A stretch of 64,000 bases of DNA from assembly GCF_001026905.1 (NCBI RefSeq), contig NZ_LAQL01000002.1:496001-560000 (forward strand). Direction: 5' to 3'. The first letter of the stretch is position 1; each line of letters begins with the position of its first letter. Shown piece after piece: positions 13,171 through 56,557 of the stretch. The translations under genes were made by a program, and so were the position numbers. The stretch is from Kiloniella spongiae (GTDB taxonomy: Bacteria; Pseudomonadota; Alphaproteobacteria; Kiloniellales; Kiloniellaceae). The notes beneath the pieces were generated by a model, which worked only from the letters and a program-made list of their open reading frames with translations, was not told where the DNA came from and searched no databases.

Positions 13171-15711
13171 ATGGATAGTACCGCCCGAAGAAGACCTCAA
13201 TTAAAGAAACAGGCGATCAGGCCCGAGCTTGGGTTGCCGTGGAAAATTCAGGCAAAAACCAACCTGACCAAAATCATCCTCTTTTGGGAAAATTTCTGGA
13301 AGGCATCCTCGCTTTTTTGGGGAATACTTGGCGCTGTAATTACACTTATCCTTCTGGATTTTCCGGCCCAAATCCCGGTTTGGGGGCATATTTCCTTTCT
13401 TGTTTTATCAGGGATCTTAATTATCTACGCCGGCATTAAGGCACTTTTATCGACAAAGATGCCAACTCGTTACCAAACCTTACGACGCCTTGAGCAAGAC
13501 AATCAACTCTCTCATCGTCCCTTAAGCAGCCTTGATGATCGGCCAATAAAAACATCAAAGACAGGTCTAGGTCTTTGGCTCAACAACAAAAAACGTCTGG
13601 CTGCTTCGCTCAATTCACTCAAATTAACATCACCAAAACCACAGATTTTTAAACTGGATCCTTATGGGTTACGGTCATTAATCATCATGGGATTGTTCAT
13701 TGCCGCTTTTTCATTTCATCAATGGCCAAGTCGTCTGACTTCTGCCTTTGAATTTAAAAAACTAACTTCATTGGCGAACCAACAAGGTACAACCTTTAGC
13801 TTGTGGTTGACCCCACCAGATTACACCGGAATGTCACCTCTTTTTTATGACCAGAGCTTTACCCCGCCTGAAGAAATAAATCTGCCAAAAGGAAGTAAAG
13901 TAATCGCCCAGTTCCACGGCGAAGAAACCCCACCGGATATTCAACTCGGCGCGCATACCTTCCCAACAGAGCAAACGGGCAAGCTCAACCATCAAAGCGA
14001 ATTTGTGATTGAACAAAGCGGCACATTAGAGATTGGAAGTTCATTTTCATCACTGATCAGTACCAAGATTAATCTTATCGAAGACTCTCCGCCAAAGATC
14101 TTTCTCACCGAACAACCGCAAGGTAACGATCTGGGATTGCTTAGGATCAGTTATGAGGCACACGATGACTACGGCACCAATCTGCTCACCATTGAACTTT
14201 GGCCCATGGGCGACACGTCGGAAGCCGAAAAAACACAAATAAAGCTTCCCCTGCCTGCAAGTAAAGTGACTGAATACAAGGGGCAACATTATCTTGACCT
14301 CACAGACAATATTCTTGCTGGGGAAGAAGTCTGGTTTCAACTTTCTGTACAAGATCTTATCGAGCAACAAAGCCAAACTGACGCTATAAAAATTATAATA
14401 CCTGAACGTGATTTTACACACCCCCTAGCCCAACAGCTTGTACAGCTCCGCAAAGATCTGAACACTCCAGGAAGCAAACTAGATGTTATCGCAACACTGG
14501 GATTGCTGGTGAAAAAACCGGAAACCTACAATCACGATAGCCTTGTGGCCTTAACAATGAGTATTGCGGGGAAACATCTGCTTTTTAATCACACGCCACC
14601 GGCAGTCAAAGAAAGTCAAAGTATCCTTTGGAAAACAGCATTGCATCTTGAAGATGGTCGCATCAGTACCGCACAAAGAGAACTAAGAAACATTCAGCAG
14701 CAGCTACGAGATGCCCTGAGTTCAAATGCAGATCAAGATGAAATCTCTCGCCTTATGGATCAATTACAACAGGCTGTGGATCAACTTTTGACAAACATGC
14801 TGGAAGATTTCTTAAACAACGCTGACAAAAAGGCTCCGGCACAAGCATCCGACAATGCCCAAACAATTGAAAGTAAAGATCTCCAGAACATGATTGAGCA
14901 AGCTCGCATGCTTGCTGAAAACGGTTCAATGGAAGAAGCAATGGAGATGTTATCCCAGCTTCAGAATATGCTTGAAAACCTTGCGTTCCAGCAGGGGCAG
15001 CAACCTGGCAACAATGCTAACGATGTAGGTCGGGAAACATTCGAAAAACTTCAAGAACTCACAAAGAGACAGGAAGAACTTCTGGAAAATAGCTACAAAC
15101 GGCAACAAGAAGCTCAGAAGCAGCAAGACGGAAATGGATCTAAACCCTCACCTCAGACCATGCCAGGCGATGGTCGTCCCGGCGAGCAGGCCAGAGAACA
15201 AAAAAATGAACGCTATCGTGATGCCAAAAGCCAGGAACGTATTCGGCAAGAGCTTGAACAGATGATGGAAAATATTCAGGAACTGCTTGGTAATTTACCC
15301 GAAGATTTTGATCAGGCCGAGCAATCTATGGGGATTGCCCGTGACGCCCTTCAAGGTCAGGATGGTGAAGGAAAAGAGAATGAACAAGCTGTTCGCGCAC
15401 AGACTAGAAGCTTGCGAAAACTGCAAAATGGTACTGAGCAAGCAGCTGCAAAATATTTAAAAATGCTCAGCCAGGCTCCTGAGCGGGGGAGCGGCTGGGT
15501 CAGAGGTAAAGATGGATCTGGCCGAGATCCATTTGGAAGAAACATCGGAAACAAAGGAGGAAGCATCGCCAAGCAAGGCGTTCCCCTACCAAACGAAACC
15601 GATGTTATGAGAAGTAGGTCTATCTTGGAAGAACTAAGAAACAGGCGCAATGACCGTCAACGCTCTCAAGAAGAAAGAACCTATATACAGAAACTGCTGG
15701 AGCGCTTTTAG
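13171..15711 (+). CDS. TIGR02302/DUF4175 family large membrane protein
   Basis: This 846-residue protein has a basic N-terminus, two close membrane helices (about 46-64 and 72-93) and a third near 169-186. A beta-rich extracytoplasmic part follows. The C-terminal half is long, Gln/Glu-rich and helical, likely coiled coil (about 480-740), ending in a Gly/Arg-rich tail. This matches the alphaproteobacterial TIGR02302 family, which usually follows lysA as here; its function is unproven. The ATG at 13171 is chosen. An ATG at 13163 is in another frame and stops after 13 codons. AAGGA lies about 12 nt upstream, a long spacing. Confidence 0.85.
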   Translation: MDSTARRRPQLKKQAIRPELGLPWKIQAKTNLTKIILFWENFWKASSLFWGILGAVITLILLDFPAQIPVWGHISFLVLSGILIIYAGIKALLSTKMPTRYQTLRRLEQDNQLSHRPLSSLDDRPIKTSKTGLGLWLNNKKRLAASLNSLKLTSPKPQIFKLDPYGLRSLIIMGLFIAAFSFHQWPSRLTSAFEFKKLTSLANQQGTTFSLWLTPPDYTGMSPLFYDQSFTPPEEINLPKGSKVIAQFHGEETPPDIQLGAHTFPTEQTGKLNHQSEFVIEQSGTLEIGSSFSSLISTKINLIEDSPPKIFLTEQPQGNDLGLLRISYEAHDDYGTNLLTIELWPMGDTSEAEKTQIKLPLPASKVTEYKGQHYLDLTDNILAGEEVWFQLSVQDLIEQQSQTDAIKIIIPERDFTHPLAQQLVQLRKDLNTPGSKLDVIATLGLLVKKPETYNHDSLVALTMSIAGKHLLFNHTPPAVKESQSILWKTALHLEDGRISTAQRELRNIQQQLRDALSSNADQDEISRLMDQLQQAVDQLLTNMLEDFLNNADKKAPAQASDNAQTIESKDLQNMIEQARMLAENGSMEEAMEMLSQLQNMLENLAFQQGQQPGNNANDVGRETFEKLQELTKRQEELLENSYKRQQEAQKQQDGNGSKPSPQTMPGDGRPGEQAREQKNERYRDAKSQERIRQELEQMMENIQELLGNLPEDFDQAEQSMGIARDALQGQDGEGKENEQAVRAQTRSLRKLQNGTEQAAAKYLKMLSQAPERGSGWVRGKDGSGRDPFGRNIGNKGGSIAKQGVPLPNETDVMRSRSILEELRNRRNDRQRSQEERTYIQKLLERF

Positions 15712-15743: not shown

Positions 15744-16112
15744 CTAACTTTCTTTTACACCTAAGGCTTCTTCTGCTGCGTCGCAAATTTCCTGAAGGCT
15801 AAAGGGTTTTGTCACAACTTTAAAAATCAATTCTTCCAGATTATGCGCCCGTTGTTTTTCTGCCGAATAACCGGTCATAAGTAACACGGGCATATCAGGT
15901 GCATCTTTTGCGACCTTGAGAGCCAACCCGATACCATCCAATCCCGGCATAACAATATCAGTGATCAATAAATCATATGTATCTTCACCAAGAGCCTCTA
16001 AGGCTTGCATTCCGTCGCCAACGGCTTTTACATCGTGATTTTTATGCGTCAAAGCCCGTGCGACAAAACTACGAACAGCATTATCATCTTCAGCTATCAA
16101 AATCTTCGACAT
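15744..16112 (-). CDS. cpdR: Single-domain response regulator, CpdR-like
   Basis: This is a 122-residue receiver domain without an output domain. The acidic pair is D9-D10, the phosphoacceptor D52 lies in LLITDIVMPG, T80 and K102 (TKPF) complete the active site. The sequence ILIAEDDNAVRSFVARAL...GDGMQALEAL closely resembles Caulobacter CpdR. When unphosphorylated, CpdR localises ClpXP and promotes degradation of CtrA and other cell-cycle proteins. A CtrA-type box lies 33 nt upstream (16145-16159). The gene is convergent with the DUF4175 gene. Another CheY-like role cannot be excluded. Confidence 0.8.
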   Translation of the reverse strand: MSKILIAEDDNAVRSFVARALTHKNHDVKAVGDGMQALEALGEDTYDLLITDIVMPGLDGIGLALKVAKDAPDMPVLLMTGYSAEKQRAHNLEELIFKVVTKPFSLQEICDAAEEALGVKES

Positions 16113-16144: not shown

Positions 16145-16159
16145 TTAACATTACGTTAA
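16145..16159. promoter_or_regulatory. CtrA-type box upstream of cpdR
   Basis: A perfect TTAA-N7-TTAA (TTAACATTACGTTAA) lies 33 nt before the cpdR start codon. This is the full consensus of the CtrA response regulator in Caulobacter and relatives. Its position is compatible with control of cpdR, a gene that itself belongs to the CtrA degradation pathway. Confidence 0.55.
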
Positions 16160-16233
16160 TTAGAGGATATCACGGAGTTACCAGTGACGCCATGCTTGAA
16201 AAATAACGCGTTGAAAGACCACAGCTAATGGAT

Positions 16234-17019
16234 TTATTCTGCAACAGGAGAAAAATCCGGATTTTGTAAAGCATCCTCGTCCGATATAAAGTTCACATTG
16301 ACCAGCTTAGCTTTGGAACTGTTCACCAGTTCAATTAAAAACGTAATTTTTTCTTCCGGATCAAGATAAGCGACATCAGCAATAATCGTCTTACGAGATA
16401 CAGCCTCACCACTCTCTGTTCTCATTGCACCAAGTAATTTAGGCACAACAACCTTCTTATCGGTCGTGTTCTGAATTTCACCAGTTATAACAATAAGCTT
16501 CTGACCATCCCGCGAGGCCCGCTCAATCTCTTGATTTTCTATCGCAAGCCCATAACCAACAGGATAAACTTGGAGATCGAGAAAGTCATAAACCTTCATT
16601 GCCTCGGGGACGGTATTTACAATTTGAATACGTACAGATTGATCAGCAACAGCGTAACCCGCGCCTCCACCCAAGATAAGAAGCAATAGCCAGGCAATGA
16701 GCCCACCTTTGCCTTTCTTCTTCTCTTTCTTTTTATCCGCCGCAAAGCCTTTCGGGCGCTTGGAGCGTACATTCCCAGGCTCAACAAAATCATCATCCAA
16801 CGGCGAAGGTTCCGGTGGCATTGGTGAGGGTGTATCCGCAGAAGATGCCGCTACATTTTCATCAGTAGGAATGTCCGCATCCGTCGGCGTAAATTCAAGC
16901 TCTGGCTCCTGAAACCATGTATGCCGACAGCTACTGCATCGAACTTTTCGCCCGGAATCACCCAAGGCTTCAGAGGCAATTCGGAATTTGCTACTGCATT
17001 CAGGACAAGAAACAATCAT
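16234..17019 (-). CDS. MJ0042-type zinc-ribbon protein with DUF3426 domain
   Basis: This is a 261-residue protein. The N-terminal zinc ribbon has CPECSSKF and CSSCRHTW pairs (about residues 5-36). An acidic Pro/Ser-rich linker follows. After a Lys-rich patch there is one transmembrane helix (about 107-127), and then a DUF3426 domain. The family is frequent in proteobacteria but its function is unknown; the layout suggests a membrane-anchored protein with a cytoplasmic zinc site. I chose the ATG at 17019, which has GGTGA about 8 nt upstream, over the GTG at 17031. It is divergent from ftsE, an arrangement seen in related genomes. Confidence 0.8.
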   Translation of the reverse strand: MIVSCPECSSKFRIASEALGDSGRKVRCSSCRHTWFQEPELEFTPTDADIPTDENVAASSADTPSPMPPEPSPLDDDFVEPGNVRSKRPKGFAADKKKEKKKGKGGLIAWLLLLILGGGAGYAVADQSVRIQIVNTVPEAMKVYDFLDLQVYPVGYGLAIENQEIERASRDGQKLIVITGEIQNTTDKKVVVPKLLGAMRTESGEAVSRKTIIADVAYLDPEEKITFLIELVNSSKAKLVNVNFISDEDALQNPDFSPVAE

Positions 17020-17196
17020 GCGATTTTTCACCAGCGAAGAAACTAAATTGGCCTTAATTTATACGGGCCATAAAATACGATGGCAAGTAAGGCCTTACAC
17101 AACGGACGTTTTTGTTCTCTGATCAATGATTTATCAGGGGACAAGGCTTTACGCTAGCGGACAAAATATGTCATTGTTTCTCCGTCATTCACCACT

Positions 17197-17913
17197 ATGG
17201 ATTTCAAACTTTTGGTCCGCTTTCAAGATGTTCATTTGCGTTATGGCTCTGGCCCCGATGTCCTGCATCAGGTCAATTTAACTCTCGCACCGGGTTCTTT
17301 CCACTTTATGGTTGGGCCAAGTGGTGCAGGAAAATCATCCCTATTGCGCTTGATGTACCTGGCACATCGTCCGTCTTCTGGTCGTCTCAGTATTTTTGGA
17401 CGGGACGTATCCCAACAAGACCGAAAAGAACTGACCATGCTAAGACGACGCATTGGCATTATTTTTCAAGATTTTCGACTACTTGATCATCTGACCGCAT
17501 TGGAAAATGTTGCCCTGCCGCTCACGATTACCGGGCAGTCACTAGATAAAGTCAGACGAAATGTAAGTGAATTACTCTCCTGGGTTGGCCTTGCTGATTA
17601 TCTGGATGCGAAACCGCCAACATTATCTGGCGGTCAACAGCAACGTGTTGCGATTGCACGCGCTGTTATTGCACGTCCCAGCCTGCTTTTAGCTGATGAA
17701 CCAACAGGGAATCTGGATGATAAGATCGCTGAGCGGTTACTCTTCCTGTTTGAAGAACTGAATAAACGCGGCACAACCATTGTCGTGGCATCCCATAATG
17801 AAGGACTGGTAAACCGTTTTAATCACCCCGTTTTTAAAATAGTGAATGGCGAAGTAAGACTGATCCGGAACCAACAAAATTCTCCTGTAACACCGACAGC
17901 GGAGAACATGTAA
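17197..17913 (+). CDS. ftsE: Cell division ATP-binding protein FtsE
   Basis: FtsE is the ATPase of the FtsEX complex, which couples divisome assembly to peptidoglycan hydrolase activation. In the 238 residues, Walker A is GPSGAGKSS (40-48), the ABC signature is LSGGQ (144-148) and Walker B is LLLADEP (164-170). The Q-loop FQDFRLLDHLTALENVALPL is typical of FtsE. The ftsX start overlaps the stop codon (TAATG), so translation is coupled. The start region lacks a clear ribosome site; ATG 17197 is the first good start. Confidence 0.95.
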   Translation: MDFKLLVRFQDVHLRYGSGPDVLHQVNLTLAPGSFHFMVGPSGAGKSSLLRLMYLAHRPSSGRLSIFGRDVSQQDRKELTMLRRRIGIIFQDFRLLDHLTALENVALPLTITGQSLDKVRRNVSELLSWVGLADYLDAKPPTLSGGQQQRVAIARAVIARPSLLLADEPTGNLDDKIAERLLFLFEELNKRGTTIVVASHNEGLVNRFNHPVFKIVNGEVRLIRNQQNSPVTPTAENM

Positions 17914-18803
17914 TGTTTGGGAACAAAAACGATGTGCCTCTCGACAGAGACGCATCCAGCAGGTTTTTACCTTGGTTGATCGCCATGATGGTTTATCTGG
18001 CCACCATGTCGCTGATTATCGCAATCACAATGAACAAACTTGCCAATCGCTGGGACCAGGGTCTTTCAAGTAGCTTAACAATACAAATTCCTGCCGAACC
18101 TTCCGCAGAAAAGCGTCGAACCCTAGAAAAACAACTCAAAACCTTTATTACGAAGATCGAAAACCTGGATAATATTTCACGGGTTGAACAGCTAAATGAC
18201 ACCGAGTTAAACAAACTTATGGAACCCTGGTTAGGCAAGGATATATTACTTCATGATTTACCTATTCCTTACCTGATCTCAATCGAACTAGACAGTTCCA
18301 GCGCCAAAACAATTGATGAAATAAAGCTTATTCTGGCACAAGATATTCCTAATGCCAGTGTTGATGATCATCAACGATGGCTTGGCAATCTGTTAGGCCT
18401 AACCAAAATCATTCAAATCATTGCCCTACTGGTCGTAATCTTGGTTGGCGGAGCAGCAGCCTTAATGGTTATTCTCGTCACTCGTATGGGCCTCGCGATT
18501 CATCGTCAGGTTGTTGAACTTTTCCACCATATGGGTGCACATGATTCATACATCGCTTCACGCTTTCAGTTTCACGCCTTGAAGCTCAGCATCGTCGGCG
18601 GCCTTTCAGGACTACTTCTTGCGGGCATCACAGTTGCCAGCTTCAGTTCTCTATTAGGACAGGCAAATAGTGCTATTCTTCCGACACTCACATTCACTTC
18701 TGGTGAATGGGGTTTACTCTTATTAATGCCATTATCTGCTTCTTTAATTGCAATGATGACCGCTAGGTTAACTGTATTAAGAAGTTTGGCTTTAATGCCG
18801 TAA
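17913..18803 (+). CDS. ftsX: Cell division protein FtsX
   Basis: FtsX is the membrane partner of FtsE; its extracytoplasmic loop recruits peptidoglycan hydrolase activators. The 296-residue protein has a membrane helix at about 22-44 and a large extracytoplasmic loop (45-165). Three more helices lie at about 172-195, 220-245 and 265-290, the usual FtsX topology. It is coupled to ftsE by a one-base TAATG overlap and is followed by a YdcF-like gene 21 nt later. Confidence 0.93.
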   Translation: MFGNKNDVPLDRDASSRFLPWLIAMMVYLATMSLIIAITMNKLANRWDQGLSSSLTIQIPAEPSAEKRRTLEKQLKTFITKIENLDNISRVEQLNDTELNKLMEPWLGKDILLHDLPIPYLISIELDSSSAKTIDEIKLILAQDIPNASVDDHQRWLGNLLGLTKIIQIIALLVVILVGGAAALMVILVTRMGLAIHRQVVELFHHMGAHDSYIASRFQFHALKLSIVGGLSGLLLAGITVASFSSLLGQANSAILPTLTFTSGEWGLLLLMPLSASLIAMMTARLTVLRSLALMP

Positions 18804-26415: not shown

Positions 26416-27180
26416 ATGCTTGATGTCAGACAAATCCCCATACTCAGTGATAATTACAGCTATTTGATCAAAGACACTGAAACAGGCGCGGTTGCCGTCA
26501 TTGATCCCGGTGTTTCGGACCCAATTCTGGATAAAGCAGATGAATTCGGCTGGCAGATTACAGATATAATTCTGACACACCATCATTATGACCACATTGA
26601 TGGCTTGGCTGACATAAAGCAGAAAACCAATGCAAAGGTAACAGGTCCCAAAAGGGATCAACACCGCATTGAGGGTATGGATGCGCTGGTCGACGGCGGA
26701 GATAACATCCAGTTTGGATCGAGAACAGCAAAAGTATTTTATGTACCCGGTCATACATTGGGACACATCGCCTATTGGTTCGAGGAAGATAATATTCTAT
26801 TTCCCGGAGATAGTCTGTTTTCATTGGGATGCGGGCGTCTTTTCGAGGGCACGCCGGAAATGATGTGGCAATCTCTGCAACAATATCTACCTCTTCCTGA
26901 AAAAACGTGCATCTATTCGGCACATGAATATACTCTTTCAAATGCCGAATTTTCGCTGACAATTGATCCCGATAATTCAGATTTGAAAAACAGAGTTGAA
27001 AAAATCAAAAGCCTGCGGAAAAATAACGAACCGACAGTACCAAGCCTGTTAGGTGAAGAACTAAAAACCAACCCTTTCCTGAGACCCAACGATATCGGAA
27101 TTAGAAAAAACCTGAGCATGCTCTCCGCAACAGATGCAGATGTGTTCAAGGAAATCCGGAAACGCAAAGACAACTTTTAA
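26416..27180 (+). CDS. gloB: Hydroxyacylglutathione hydrolase (glyoxalase II)
   Basis: GloB hydrolyses S-lactoylglutathione to lactate and glutathione in methylglyoxal detoxification. It is a binuclear metallo-beta-lactamase-fold enzyme. The metal motif THHHYDH is at 54-60, VPGHTLGH supplies another histidine, PGDSLFSLGCGR the bridging aspartate and YSAHEYT another ligand. The length of 254 residues is normal. A GST gene follows 55 nt later. Confidence 0.95.
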   Translation: MLDVRQIPILSDNYSYLIKDTETGAVAVIDPGVSDPILDKADEFGWQITDIILTHHHYDHIDGLADIKQKTNAKVTGPKRDQHRIEGMDALVDGGDNIQFGSRTAKVFYVPGHTLGHIAYWFEEDNILFPGDSLFSLGCGRLFEGTPEMMWQSLQQYLPLPEKTCIYSAHEYTLSNAEFSLTIDPDNSDLKNRVEKIKSLRKNNEPTVPSLLGEELKTNPFLRPNDIGIRKNLSMLSATDADVFKEIRKRKDNF

Positions 27181-27235
27181 CGTCCTCTTAAAAGCCAAAC
27201 GATCCTTTACCCGTATCCTAATATCGGAGCCATCA

Positions 27236-35758: not shown

Positions 35759-36198
35759 TGATATTCACGTTAAATTTCATTAAATAATAGCGATTAAGTC
35801 ATTAACGAATGCTGAATCTGACTCAGAATTAATCGCAAAAAAACAAATGATTGTTTTTGTATATTGGCTTTTTGAAACTCAGTTGCAAGGAACTTATTTT
35901 TTCTTTGAGAACAAAACCTTAGAAAACCAAATACAATACACAGAAAGTAAATAAATTACGCAAAGCGGTTTACAAAATAAGCAAAGACAACAAAGCACAA
36001 TATACTTAACACTAAAAACAAATTAACTTACCAATATTGGTTAACAAAAAGTTAATACACATTCATGGAAAGTATAAAAAATTATTTTTCAATTATTTTC
36101 TACAACATCTATTGAAATCCGTTATCAAAAGGTCTATTTCACACTAAAATAATGTAAACGCCTGCTATGTAAGCATTGGTTTTAAGTGAGTAAATTTA
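35759..36198. other. AT-rich intergenic region before the XRE gene
   Basis: This is 440 nt without a gene, very rich in A and T, with divergent promoters expected for the GGDEF/EAL gene and the XRE regulator. It contains a 12-bp palindrome ACCAATATTGGT (36030-36041), the CtrA-type box at 36041-36055 and a TTAA-N6-TTAA (35770-35783) close to the GGDEF/EAL start. No small ORF with a ribosome site is seen. Confidence 0.5.
36041..36055. promoter_or_regulatory. CtrA-type box upstream of the XRE regulator
   Basis: TTAA-N7-TTAA (TTAACAAAAAGTTAA) lies about 140 nt before the XRE start codon and directly next to a 12-bp palindrome. It matches the full CtrA consensus. The region is AT-rich, so a chance match is more likely here than at cpdR. 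Confidence 0.4.
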
Positions 36199-53488: not shown

Positions 53489-54769
53489 TTACTCTGCATC
53501 ATCGATGTAAAGAGTAACTTGCCATTCAAGTTCTTTATCCGAAATCGGAACATCACCATTTTCATCGGCCTTAATTGACTGTTGCGGCGGGATGCCTGCA
53601 AGACGCAACTGGACGATATTTGCAAGTTCCATAGAAAACCCGGCCTTCCAAACCAAGGCAACCACCGTTTTAGCAGCTCTTGAGAGAATCATTCTCCGAG
53701 CAACGAGCGGTGGAAGCTCAGCAACCTTGGCAAGAGCATGAATAGCAAACTCACGATCACCACAGTGCAGTCGTGTGGTAATGCGATCTTCAGTCAACTT
53801 CCTTGATTTATGTAGCTTTTCAACTTCGGCCTCTATGGCCTTTTCATCTTCATCGCTGATATTCTCGTCAAGGACATCATCAACTTCCATCCGCTTGCGG
53901 ACTTCCAGTCCAATAGCTGTAGAGACTTCAGGATCCAAATCAGGCCGATCCAGTAAATTCTCCAAAAGAGTTTCTGCAACGAATCCTGCCAAACGCTTTA
54001 GAGATAAAGGAGAAAGCTTTGGACGTTTCACAAGGGGCTTATGCCAAACTTCAACCCCAGGGGCTTGCTCAACCAACTGATCCAGCGTTTCTTCGCGAAT
54101 TTGTGCCGATTGATTATCCAACATGGATGCAATCGCATCATTATCTTTAGTCTCGACAATTGCATCGGTAATTTTCTCGCCAAGATTCGACCGACGAGAA
54201 ATTGCTTTTAGTCTCGATCCACGAACACCATCCCAGATGATTTTCAACAGATCTTCGTCTGTTAAAATCGGGGATGATTGAAGCACAGGCGACGCCACAC
54301 TATCAACATCATCAGACGCAAGTCTACGCACGATAGACACAGGTATCGTATCCAAGTCTTTCACGGCTTCAGAAATAACTGTACGAATTTTATCTTGCTG
54401 ATCTTCAATAAGGATTTCGAGTGTTTTTATAACGAAATCATGTGCTTTTCGTTGTGATTTTTGATCGAGATCAGGTGCCAGTTTGCTAATTTTCTCTGCC
54501 AGTTCCAGTCGAACCTGACCATCTTTATCTTTTGCAAGTAGCAAATCGGCTTGCTTTGGCGTTAAAGCGTTTGATGCAATTGCCTGACGTACATTAGCAT
54601 CACCATCATCAGCTAGATAGTAAAGAATTTCAGGCTGAATATCCTGGCGACTAGCCAAAGATAACCTGACATTACGATCCTTACTTTCTGCCATTTCCTT
54701 GGCATCTTCGTACGCTAACGCTGGTTGCATTCCTTTACTATCCTTTGAAGAATCGGTTGGTTTTATCAT
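53489..54769 (-). CDS. DUF2336 protein
   Basis: This is a 426-residue helical protein without membrane segments. The DUF2336 region shows repeats like DRNVRLSLASRQDIQPEILYYLADDGDANVRQAIASN, which resemble HEAT-type repeats. The C-terminal region has a conserved RRMILSRAAKTVVALVWKAG segment. The family is alphaproteobacterial and its function is unknown. It overlaps the diguanylate cyclase gene upstream by 4 nt (ATGA), so the two are coupled and probably function together in c-di-GMP signalling. Confidence 0.82.
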   Translation of the reverse strand: MIKPTDSSKDSKGMQPALAYEDAKEMAESKDRNVRLSLASRQDIQPEILYYLADDGDANVRQAIASNALTPKQADLLLAKDKDGQVRLELAEKISKLAPDLDQKSQRKAHDFVIKTLEILIEDQQDKIRTVISEAVKDLDTIPVSIVRRLASDDVDSVASPVLQSSPILTDEDLLKIIWDGVRGSRLKAISRRSNLGEKITDAIVETKDNDAIASMLDNQSAQIREETLDQLVEQAPGVEVWHKPLVKRPKLSPLSLKRLAGFVAETLLENLLDRPDLDPEVSTAIGLEVRKRMEVDDVLDENISDEDEKAIEAEVEKLHKSRKLTEDRITTRLHCGDREFAIHALAKVAELPPLVARRMILSRAAKTVVALVWKAGFSMELANIVQLRLAGIPPQQSIKADENGDVPISDKELEWQVTLYIDDAE

Positions 54770-56469
54770 GAGCCAACCTCATCATTTTTTTCACCAACAA
54801 TGTAAACACCGTTTTTACCGGATCGTTTCACCCGGTACATCGCTTCGTCCGCATGTATCAACAGATCAGCCAAATTCTGTTCTTCGCGCGCTATAAAAAG
54901 GTACCCACCAACAGAAGCACTTAAAGACCATTTAGGATCATCCTCCCTCGAAAACGCAGGAATAAGAGCTTCCAGAAGGTCTTGAGCCTTTCCTGTTGCT
55001 TCACGTTCAGGAACCGCAGGTAAAAACAGAACGAACTCATCTCCACCCAAGCGGCAAATCCAGTCATTCCGTCTTGTCTTACTCTTCAAAACTTCGGCAA
55101 AATCTTTTAGAACTTTATCCCCTTCCTGATGCCCATAAGCATCATTTACATACTTGAAATTATCAAGATCCAGATAGAGCAATAAATGTGTTCTTTCATC
55201 GCCAATATTATCTGCGATAAAGCCATCAAGAAGGTGTTCAAAGTGCCGGCGATTTAAAAGCCCCGTTAATGGGTCTGTGCTGGAAAGAGCCTGAAGTTCT
55301 TTATGATGTCCAAATTGCTGTAATGAGATACCAATCTGAATCTGTATTCGTTCAAGAAGCTCGCCTTCGCCTGGTGACCAAGACACTCGTCCTCCTTTGC
55401 GCCACAAACAAATAGATCCATTCACTTGATCTCTGAATTTAGCGCTTACTGCAACCAAAACACCATCTGAACTGGTTTCTTGATAAACAGTTTCACCCAT
55501 TTCCAGAGCAGCTTGAACCCGTGCAATAGCATCAAGCTGTAAGGCCTCTCCTTCTTCTGCAACTGGTTGCCAAACATCACCATCAAAATGACTTATCATG
55601 ACAGCATCAACCGGCAATGCAGGAATAAGACAGGACGCGACAGATACCAGCATTTTCATGGGCACCATTTCGCTACGGGCTATTTCTAAAATTCGATTGT
55701 AAACACGCTCGCGATGAATTTCGTTTGCCTGCAACAATTCGTCATGACGTAACTTGGTAATATCACGGCAGAATCCACGGTTTCCATGCCATGTCTCATA
55801 ATCCCCCCAAAGAGGCATCGACGTCACCAACAAACAACGTTCGTCACCAAAGCTATCTTTGACCCATATCTCTTCTTCCTCACAAGGGACTCTGCAAGAG
55901 AAAGGATTGGTGATAATTGAAGACGGATCAGCAAAGAGACTTACAGCATCCGACCCTGATAACTCTGCAGCTGAGAAACCCACGCCACCTTCGGGTGTTA
56001 TGAAGCTAATCTTTCCTTCCCTGTCTGTTTCCCAAGCAAAATCACAGGCGGCTTCCAAAAGATCACGATAGCGTTGTCGGGATTCAATAAGCGCAGCACG
56101 CAAGTTCCGCTCAAGAGAGATATTACGACCGAGTAAAAGTGCTGATGCACCATCAGACCAAGGTAATAAAGCAAGATCAAATGCGCCAAGAACTCTACTG
56201 GCTTCATCACGTCCCGCGCGGACCAGCAAAGGGTTAACCTGGGCGGCACGGCCACTCAGCGCAGATTGTAGAGCATCATGATATTCTTCCGATCCACCAC
56301 GTTTAATAAACGTGCATAACAGATCTGCTTGCTCATTCGCACTGGAAACGGTGCCGTTTCTTTCAACAAAAAGTACAGCCCCAGGAAAGTCTGAAAAAGG
56401 CCCGCCAGGAATTGTAACACCCCACTGTTCCTTATCGGTTTTATTCGGCAAATTACCACTCTTGTTCAT
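54766..56469 (-). CDS. PAS-GAF-GGDEF diguanylate cyclase
   Basis: This is a 567-residue cytoplasmic protein with two PAS-like regions (about 25-120 and 128-245) and a GAF-like region (about 255-385). The GGDEF domain follows (about 395-555). The active-site motif GGDEF is intact at 475-479, the metal site is DLDNFKYVND and an RxxD inhibitory site (R466, D469) precedes it by five residues. It should make c-di-GMP and be feedback-inhibited. The DUF2336 gene follows with a 4-nt overlap. A CtrA-type box lies 74-88 nt upstream of the start codon. Confidence 0.9.
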   Translation of the reverse strand: MNKSGNLPNKTDKEQWGVTIPGGPFSDFPGAVLFVERNGTVSSANEQADLLCTFIKRGGSEEYHDALQSALSGRAAQVNPLLVRAGRDEASRVLGAFDLALLPWSDGASALLLGRNISLERNLRAALIESRQRYRDLLEAACDFAWETDREGKISFITPEGGVGFSAAELSGSDAVSLFADPSSIITNPFSCRVPCEEEEIWVKDSFGDERCLLVTSMPLWGDYETWHGNRGFCRDITKLRHDELLQANEIHRERVYNRILEIARSEMVPMKMLVSVASCLIPALPVDAVMISHFDGDVWQPVAEEGEALQLDAIARVQAALEMGETVYQETSSDGVLVAVSAKFRDQVNGSICLWRKGGRVSWSPGEGELLERIQIQIGISLQQFGHHKELQALSSTDPLTGLLNRRHFEHLLDGFIADNIGDERTHLLLYLDLDNFKYVNDAYGHQEGDKVLKDFAEVLKSKTRRNDWICRLGGDEFVLFLPAVPEREATGKAQDLLEALIPAFSREDDPKWSLSASVGGYLFIAREEQNLADLLIHADEAMYRVKRSGKNGVYIVGEKNDEVGS

Positions 56470-56542: not shown

Positions 56543-56557
56543 TTAACACCGACTTAA
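56543..56557. promoter_or_regulatory. CtrA-type box in the diguanylate cyclase/nucleotidase intergenic region
   Basis: TTAA-N7-TTAA (TTAACACCGACTTAA) matches the full CtrA consensus and lies in the divergent gap between the diguanylate cyclase operon (start 56469) and the nucleotidase gene. It could serve either gene. Its GC-containing spacer makes it less likely than an all-AT match to be a composition artefact. Confidence 0.5.

Follow-up and report, generated by a model that had tools for sequence, protein, structure and literature searches.

Results

Organisation of the locus

The DNA analysed here, referred to as the window, is a 64-kb stretch of the Kiloniella spongiae genome (G000; 4.47 Mb in 76 contigs), in which a TTAA-N7-TTAA sequence precedes the gene of a single-domain response regulator close to ftsE. 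The features of this locus are as follows.

13171..15711, plus strand: DUF4175/TIGR02302 gene, convergent neighbour (family scan)
15744..16112, minus strand: gene of a single-domain response regulator, CpdR-like (group A), PF00072
16141..16148, minus strand: TTAACCAT, the ungapped CtrA motif known from Caulobacter
16145..16159, minus strand: full CtrA-type box (predicted), TTAACATTACGTTAA, which becomes TTAACGTAATGTTAAC when read towards the gene
16164..16172, minus strand: candidate extended -10 element TGATATCCT, a match to the pattern TGnTATnnT
16234..17031, minus strand: MJ0042-type zinc-ribbon gene, conserved neighbour (family scan)
17197..17913, plus strand: ftsE (TIGR02673, above cut-off)
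17913..18803, plus strand: ftsX-like gene (TIGR00439, 70 bits where the cut-off is 255)

The box is separated from the start codon of the response regulator gene (ORF 15744-16112, minus strand) by 32 bases; the spacing of 33 nt given in the initial annotation holds if the step is counted, but the intervening bases number 32. In the window the box is a palindrome out to the fifth base on each side (TTAAC-N5-GTTAA), and its second half is overlapped by the ungapped motif named in PMC6180460 (in excerpt). TTAACCA is present in 14 of the 23 family upstream regions described below. The zinc-ribbon gene accompanies the response regulator gene at 37 of the 42 loci L013-L054, 21/23 family loci and 26/26 class loci, while ftsE and the DUF4175 gene lie near group A genes in many loci, within the reach of the flanks examined.

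Conservation of the box in Kiloniellaceae

Twenty-three family genomes, including that of the window, were compared using the best match of the window gene from each, covering Kiloniella (g1, n = 9) and the genera g2 (n = 4), g3 (n = 1), g4 (n = 1) and g5 (n = 8). An exact TTAA-N7-TTAA was found in 20 of the 23 upstream regions (300 bp), compared to 0.18 expected from dinucleotide shuffles, and the remaining three (L100, L101 and L108) carry a box with one mismatch; as the genomes are related, these family counts overstate independence. Among all spacings from 0 to 20 in the same upstream regions, N7 gave 20 hits and the runner-up four, and no exact box was observed elsewhere in those 23 loci (0 in 68,862 bp). 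The exact box is distributed over the genera as 7/9 (g1), 4/4 (g2), 0/1 (g3), 1/1 (g4) and 8/8 (g5). Its distance to the gene differs by genus, being 32-33 nt in g1, 124-164 in g5, 159 in g4 and 189-210 in g2, and the sequence surrounding it is dissimilar between genera. Given that the box distances are unalike between genera, what has been kept is the motif itself rather than a copied block of sequence.

Within Kiloniella, seven of the eight half-site columns are invariant, compared with two of the seven spacer columns and 13% of the others. The upstream regions of g5 have lost the outer C/G symmetry (TTAAGCCTTGCTTAACCA) and retained TTAA-N7-TTAAC. A block of about 20 bases that directly follows the box (ACCACGCGGTGGCAGTTTG or close) is likewise conserved in g5 (L102-L107, L109 and L111), and is perhaps a promoter or the site of a second regulator.

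Outside the family, an exact box was found in 5 of 33 loci of the set L021-L054 (0.06 expected), from which L035 was dropped as truncated and in which L021 and L022 share one box and L024 apparently represents the genome of L108. Among the class-wide loci the box is exact in 3/26, one of the three (L265) having an uncertain start codon; the 33-locus and 26-locus sets may overlap.

Motif counts in the window and the genome

The window holds four matches to TTAA-N7-TTAA, three of them intergenic (16145, 36041 and 56543) and one coding (27177). The three intergenic matches had been reported in the initial annotation and are borne out here; the coding match had gone unmentioned. The mean count in 100 dinucleotide shuffles was 1.89, and four or more matches were reached in 17 of the 100, so that the window count is not significant and was rejected as evidence for the box. 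The matches other than that at 16145 are listed below.

27177..27191, no strand assigned: fourth TTAA-N7-TTAA match, coding, not judged functional
36041..36055, no strand assigned: second intergenic box, flanked by an EAL-GGDEF gene and the gene of an HTH regulator
56543..56557, no strand assigned: third intergenic box, flanked by a GGDEF gene and the gene of a HAD-type pyrimidine 5'-nucleotidase

The match at 27177-27191 falls at the junction of glyoxalase-II-like and glutathione-S-transferase-like genes. In the nine Kiloniella genomes, the 36041 box, which precedes the HTH gene, is exact in five, carries one mismatch in three and could not be placed in one (L193), with additional conserved blocks lying downstream of it. 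The 56543 box, which precedes the GGDEF gene, is exact in 9/9; the interval 54766-56469 was noted together with this region, the gap between the GGDEF and HAD-type nucleotidase genes.

Genome-wide, 104 TTAA-N7-TTAA sites were counted in 4.47 Mb vs 226 for the pattern read backwards, and over-representation of N7 sites as such was therefore rejected. Only an intergenic, spacing-specific excess is informative. This was examined in a sample of 864 kb, made up of the window plus 40 segments of G000, with rough gene calls that assigned 84.5% as coding. Intergenic TTAA-N7-TTAA occurred 24 times, the highest of 21 spacings (others: mean 14.1, sd 3.4, maximum 21), with six matches in coding DNA. The extended form TTAA-N7-TTAAC gave 15 intergenic sites, compared to a mean of 4.35 (sd 1.8, maximum 8) for the 20 other spacings, and three sites in coding DNA. 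TTAA-N7-TTAAC is thus enriched between genes specifically at N7 in this sample. The longer TTAA-N7-TTAACC was also tried as a sharper genome-wide motif and was rejected, as three sites at N7 and four at N16 indicate no spacing specificity.

With other spacings averaging 14 intergenic sites against 24 at N7, many lone N7 sites must be due to chance, and it is conservation that marks out the site at 16145. The significance of the box accordingly derives from its conservation, spacing and position, not from the window count.

Outside the window, seven neighbours of strict intergenic boxes were family-scanned, and these include a Tad-pilus-like vWA protein, a PAS_5 protein, a hybrid histidine kinase and a chemoreceptor as well as a TauE exporter, a DUF465 protein and a solute-binding protein. 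Strict boxes were located near the vWA gene (L203, 5958), the chemoreceptor gene (L226, 7341) and the hybrid histidine kinase gene (L223, 14867), and these three would fit a CtrA motility and signalling regulon.

The CtrA relay of Kiloniella spongiae

CtrA is encoded by the genome, as evidenced by 423.8 bits on NF045991 (equivalog cut-off 350), and ChpT (PF10090), RcdA (PF07323) and SciP (PF06627) are encoded by genes passing the respective cut-offs. A CckA-like kinase reached 773 bits on a model named after Brucella, whose cut-off is 1000, and the next protein in the genome scored 163; none of the 14 control genomes exceeded the cut-off of this model either. Of the three relay genes whose presence the initial annotation had proposed to check, ctrA and chpT pass, and the CckA-like kinase is by far the best match but stays below the cut-off.

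Of 21 genomes, 13 have an exact box within 450 nt upstream of ctrA (g1 9/9, g2 4/4, g5 0/7, g4 0/1); the other two of the 23 family genomes yielded no ctrA at the threshold applied. In K. spongiae, ctrA sits at the end of an apparent chemotaxis gene run, opposite a fliI-like gene, these names being assigned by eye and not by family scan. The corresponding stretch (L237; G000:C14:8001-28000) has a CtrA-type box in the ctrA-fliI gap, with chpT some 10 kb off.

The initial annotation had read 16145-16159 as a full CtrA box. This assignment is upheld by the family conservation, the N7 enrichment and the presence of ctrA, and as a prediction on comparative evidence it is well supported. From these sequence data, CtrA very probably binds the box and controls the gene. 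As a whole, the locus is probably best explained as a conserved CtrA site in the promoter of a CpdR-like receiver beside ftsE, although the thin occurrence of the box outside the family, the lack of a ctrA promoter box in g5 and g4, and the non-specificity of TTAA-N7-TTAACC weigh against this explanation.

Direction of the predicted control

The sign of control may differ from activation in Kiloniella. A TGnTATnnT sequence lies immediately upstream of the box in a position shared by seven of the nine Kiloniella genomes, and this candidate -10 element would place the start of transcription within the box. In CtrA-activated promoters the box is located near -35, while in repressed promoters of Caulobacter a half-site covers the -10 region (PMC6180460, in excerpt). 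With the box covering the predicted transcription start and only 32 nt from the start codon, the arrangement suggests that CtrA represses the gene in Kiloniella, in which case any loop would be double-negative. On the other side, the start site is itself a prediction, and a scan for sigma-70 consensus promoters before the gene returned no minus-strand site and a single plus-strand match at chance level. Moreover, the boxes of g2, g4 and g5, at 124-210 nt, are far enough upstream to suit activation. We therefore put repression in Kiloniella forward tentatively, at somewhat less than an even chance.

The receiver belongs to a clade apart from CpdR-model proteins

The window gene, whose closest named relatives are from Kiloniella species (96% identity to K. 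majae), encodes a protein consisting of the receiver domain alone (PF00072 only). The phosphorylation pocket, comprising acidic residues, aspartate, threonine and lysine (AEDD, KPF), is present in 23/23 family proteins, with the pocket aspartate of L110 shifted by an insertion. The group has a signature of about TGY-[SA]-AE-[KR]-QRAHNL. Of 387 genomes sampled from the class, 80 contain a match to the window protein at E <= 1e-30, counted on the match alone.

In the initial annotation this gene was labelled cpdR. If so, CtrA would directly activate the adaptor that helps ClpXP to destroy CtrA, as in Caulobacter, whose cpdR is described as a target of direct activation by CtrA (PMC4433202, in excerpt). 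Consistent with this label, the CpdR model NF046022 is the top NCBIfam model of the protein, and RcdA is encoded in the genome. However, the protein reaches only 106-107 bits on NF046022 and fails its cut-off of 180. A different gene in this genome (C12:265064-265414; L142, with counterparts L139-L147) scores 151 bits. The counterparts of the latter, designated group B, score 146-154 bits in the nine Kiloniella genomes, 177-179 in eight of g5 and 184 in four of g2, the last exceeding the cut-off. In g3 and g4, no gene scored above the window's own group on this model. The cut-off was passed by 1 of 14 control genomes, which we take to be Caulobacter, the only alphaproteobacterium recognised among the matching controls.

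Phylogenetic analysis gave the same picture, as a branch separated groups A and B in every one of 200 bootstrap trees; the tree comprised 16 A and 11 B rows with no named Caulobacter CpdR, and its long branches make deeper joins unsafe. The 32 matches listed in a search of solved structures carry other receiver names, none of them CpdR. Furthermore, an exact box was found upstream of group B (300 bp) in 3 of 21 cases, all from g2, and in 9/9 Kiloniella genomes the better CpdR candidate has no box within 300 bp, even allowing one mismatch.

With 106 of 180 bits and another gene of the genome fitting better at 151 bits, the window gene is not the CpdR orthologue, and the earlier label does not hold. 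On sequence comparison, it belongs instead to a distinct clade of ftsE-linked single-domain response regulators. It is distinctly unlikely that the gene is cpdR and that CtrA drives its own adaptor from this box. The feedback through CtrA degradation that had been derived from CtrA control of cpdR does not follow either, because the window gene is not the CpdR orthologue and the better candidate has no box within 300 bp. Labels of cpdR given by eye in early-branching alphaproteobacteria may thus pick the wrong gene. A limited literature search, covering CtrA and CpdR with single-domain regulators and Kiloniella, returned nothing identified as this gene.

Other explanations of the box

The palindromic form of the window site, TTAAC-N5-GTTAA, together with the palindromic nature of TTAA itself, would also be in keeping with a regulator other than CtrA. 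Yet the loss of the outer symmetry in g5, where TTAA-N7-TTAAC is kept, speaks for the direct-repeat form, and both the N7 spacing and the TTAAC end fit the known CtrA site (PMC6180460, in excerpt) in a genome that encodes CtrA, leaving such a regulator highly unlikely. A chance match is hardly credible: the window count is not significant and other spacings yield an average of 14 intergenic sites against 24 at N7 in the 864-kb sample, but 20 of 23 family genomes against 0.18 expected have the box at this gene, with none in the flanks, and it is conserved at unalike positions in several genera.

Discussion

A putative circuit around CtrA

The explanation favoured here, a conserved CtrA site in the promoter of a CpdR-like receiver beside ftsE, suggests the following scheme. 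CckA and ChpT would activate CtrA, which would recognise TTAA-N7-TTAAC as a direct repeat with two TTAA halves, and binding would tie the amount of the receiver to CtrA activity. The receiver has its phosphorylation pocket intact but lacks an output domain, and most likely contacts a histidine kinase or a phosphotransfer protein. CckA or ChpT is a plausible partner, and through such a contact the circuit around CtrA would become a feedback loop. By analogy with known systems, the receiver may act back on the CtrA relay in this way.

These steps differ in strength. CtrA control of the receiver is likely from the sequence, and any feedback would run through the receiver, a part for CtrA degradation being no more than hypothetical. 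The sign of control and the feedback loop are speculative and stand below even odds. A more specific version, in which Kiloniellaceae feedback operates via an ftsE-linked receiver talking to CckA or ChpT and not via CpdR, with repression by CtrA in Kiloniella, is unlikely.

CtrA-controlled single-domain regulators are already known as feedback elements of the relay, CpdR in Caulobacter and Osp in Rhodobacter. If the present reading is true, a further lineage with a family-conserved box beside the division gene ftsE would suggest that different receivers have been used to rebuild the circuit on more than one occasion. If repression also holds in Kiloniella, a double-negative switch would replace the negative feedback reported in Caulobacter and Rhodobacter.

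Comparison with known CtrA-controlled receivers

The predicted site at 16145-16159 shares with the CtrA full site, TTAA-N7-TTAA with a TTAAC end (PMC6180460, in excerpt), the two halves, the N7 spacing and the TTAACCAT extension. As at cpdR of Caulobacter crescentus, the box precedes the gene of a single-domain receiver; there, however, the receiver is CpdR itself and acts against CtrA, whereas the window gene is not the CpdR orthologue and CtrA control is predicted. The same question of CtrA and cpdR has been addressed by ChIP-seq and expression in Sinorhizobium meliloti and Hyphomonas neptunium. In the former, according to excerpts of PMC4433202, CtrA was bound at cpdR1 with expression unchanged, from which it follows that binding need not mean control; in the latter, cpdR is not regulated by CtrA according to excerpts of PMC7200025.

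On functional analogy, the closest working analogue would be Osp of Rhodobacter sphaeroides, a single-domain regulator that is activated by CtrA and inhibits CckA, and that was found in Rhodobacterales only, as stated in excerpts of the Osp paper (PMC9430884). Both genes have a CtrA-type site upstream of a single-domain response regulator, and in the case of Osp expression is CtrA-dependent and the protein feeds back on the relay. The two differ in the phosphorylation pocket, as Osp, compared here by its published description, is without the two acidic residues and the lysine that group A proteins have in 23/23.
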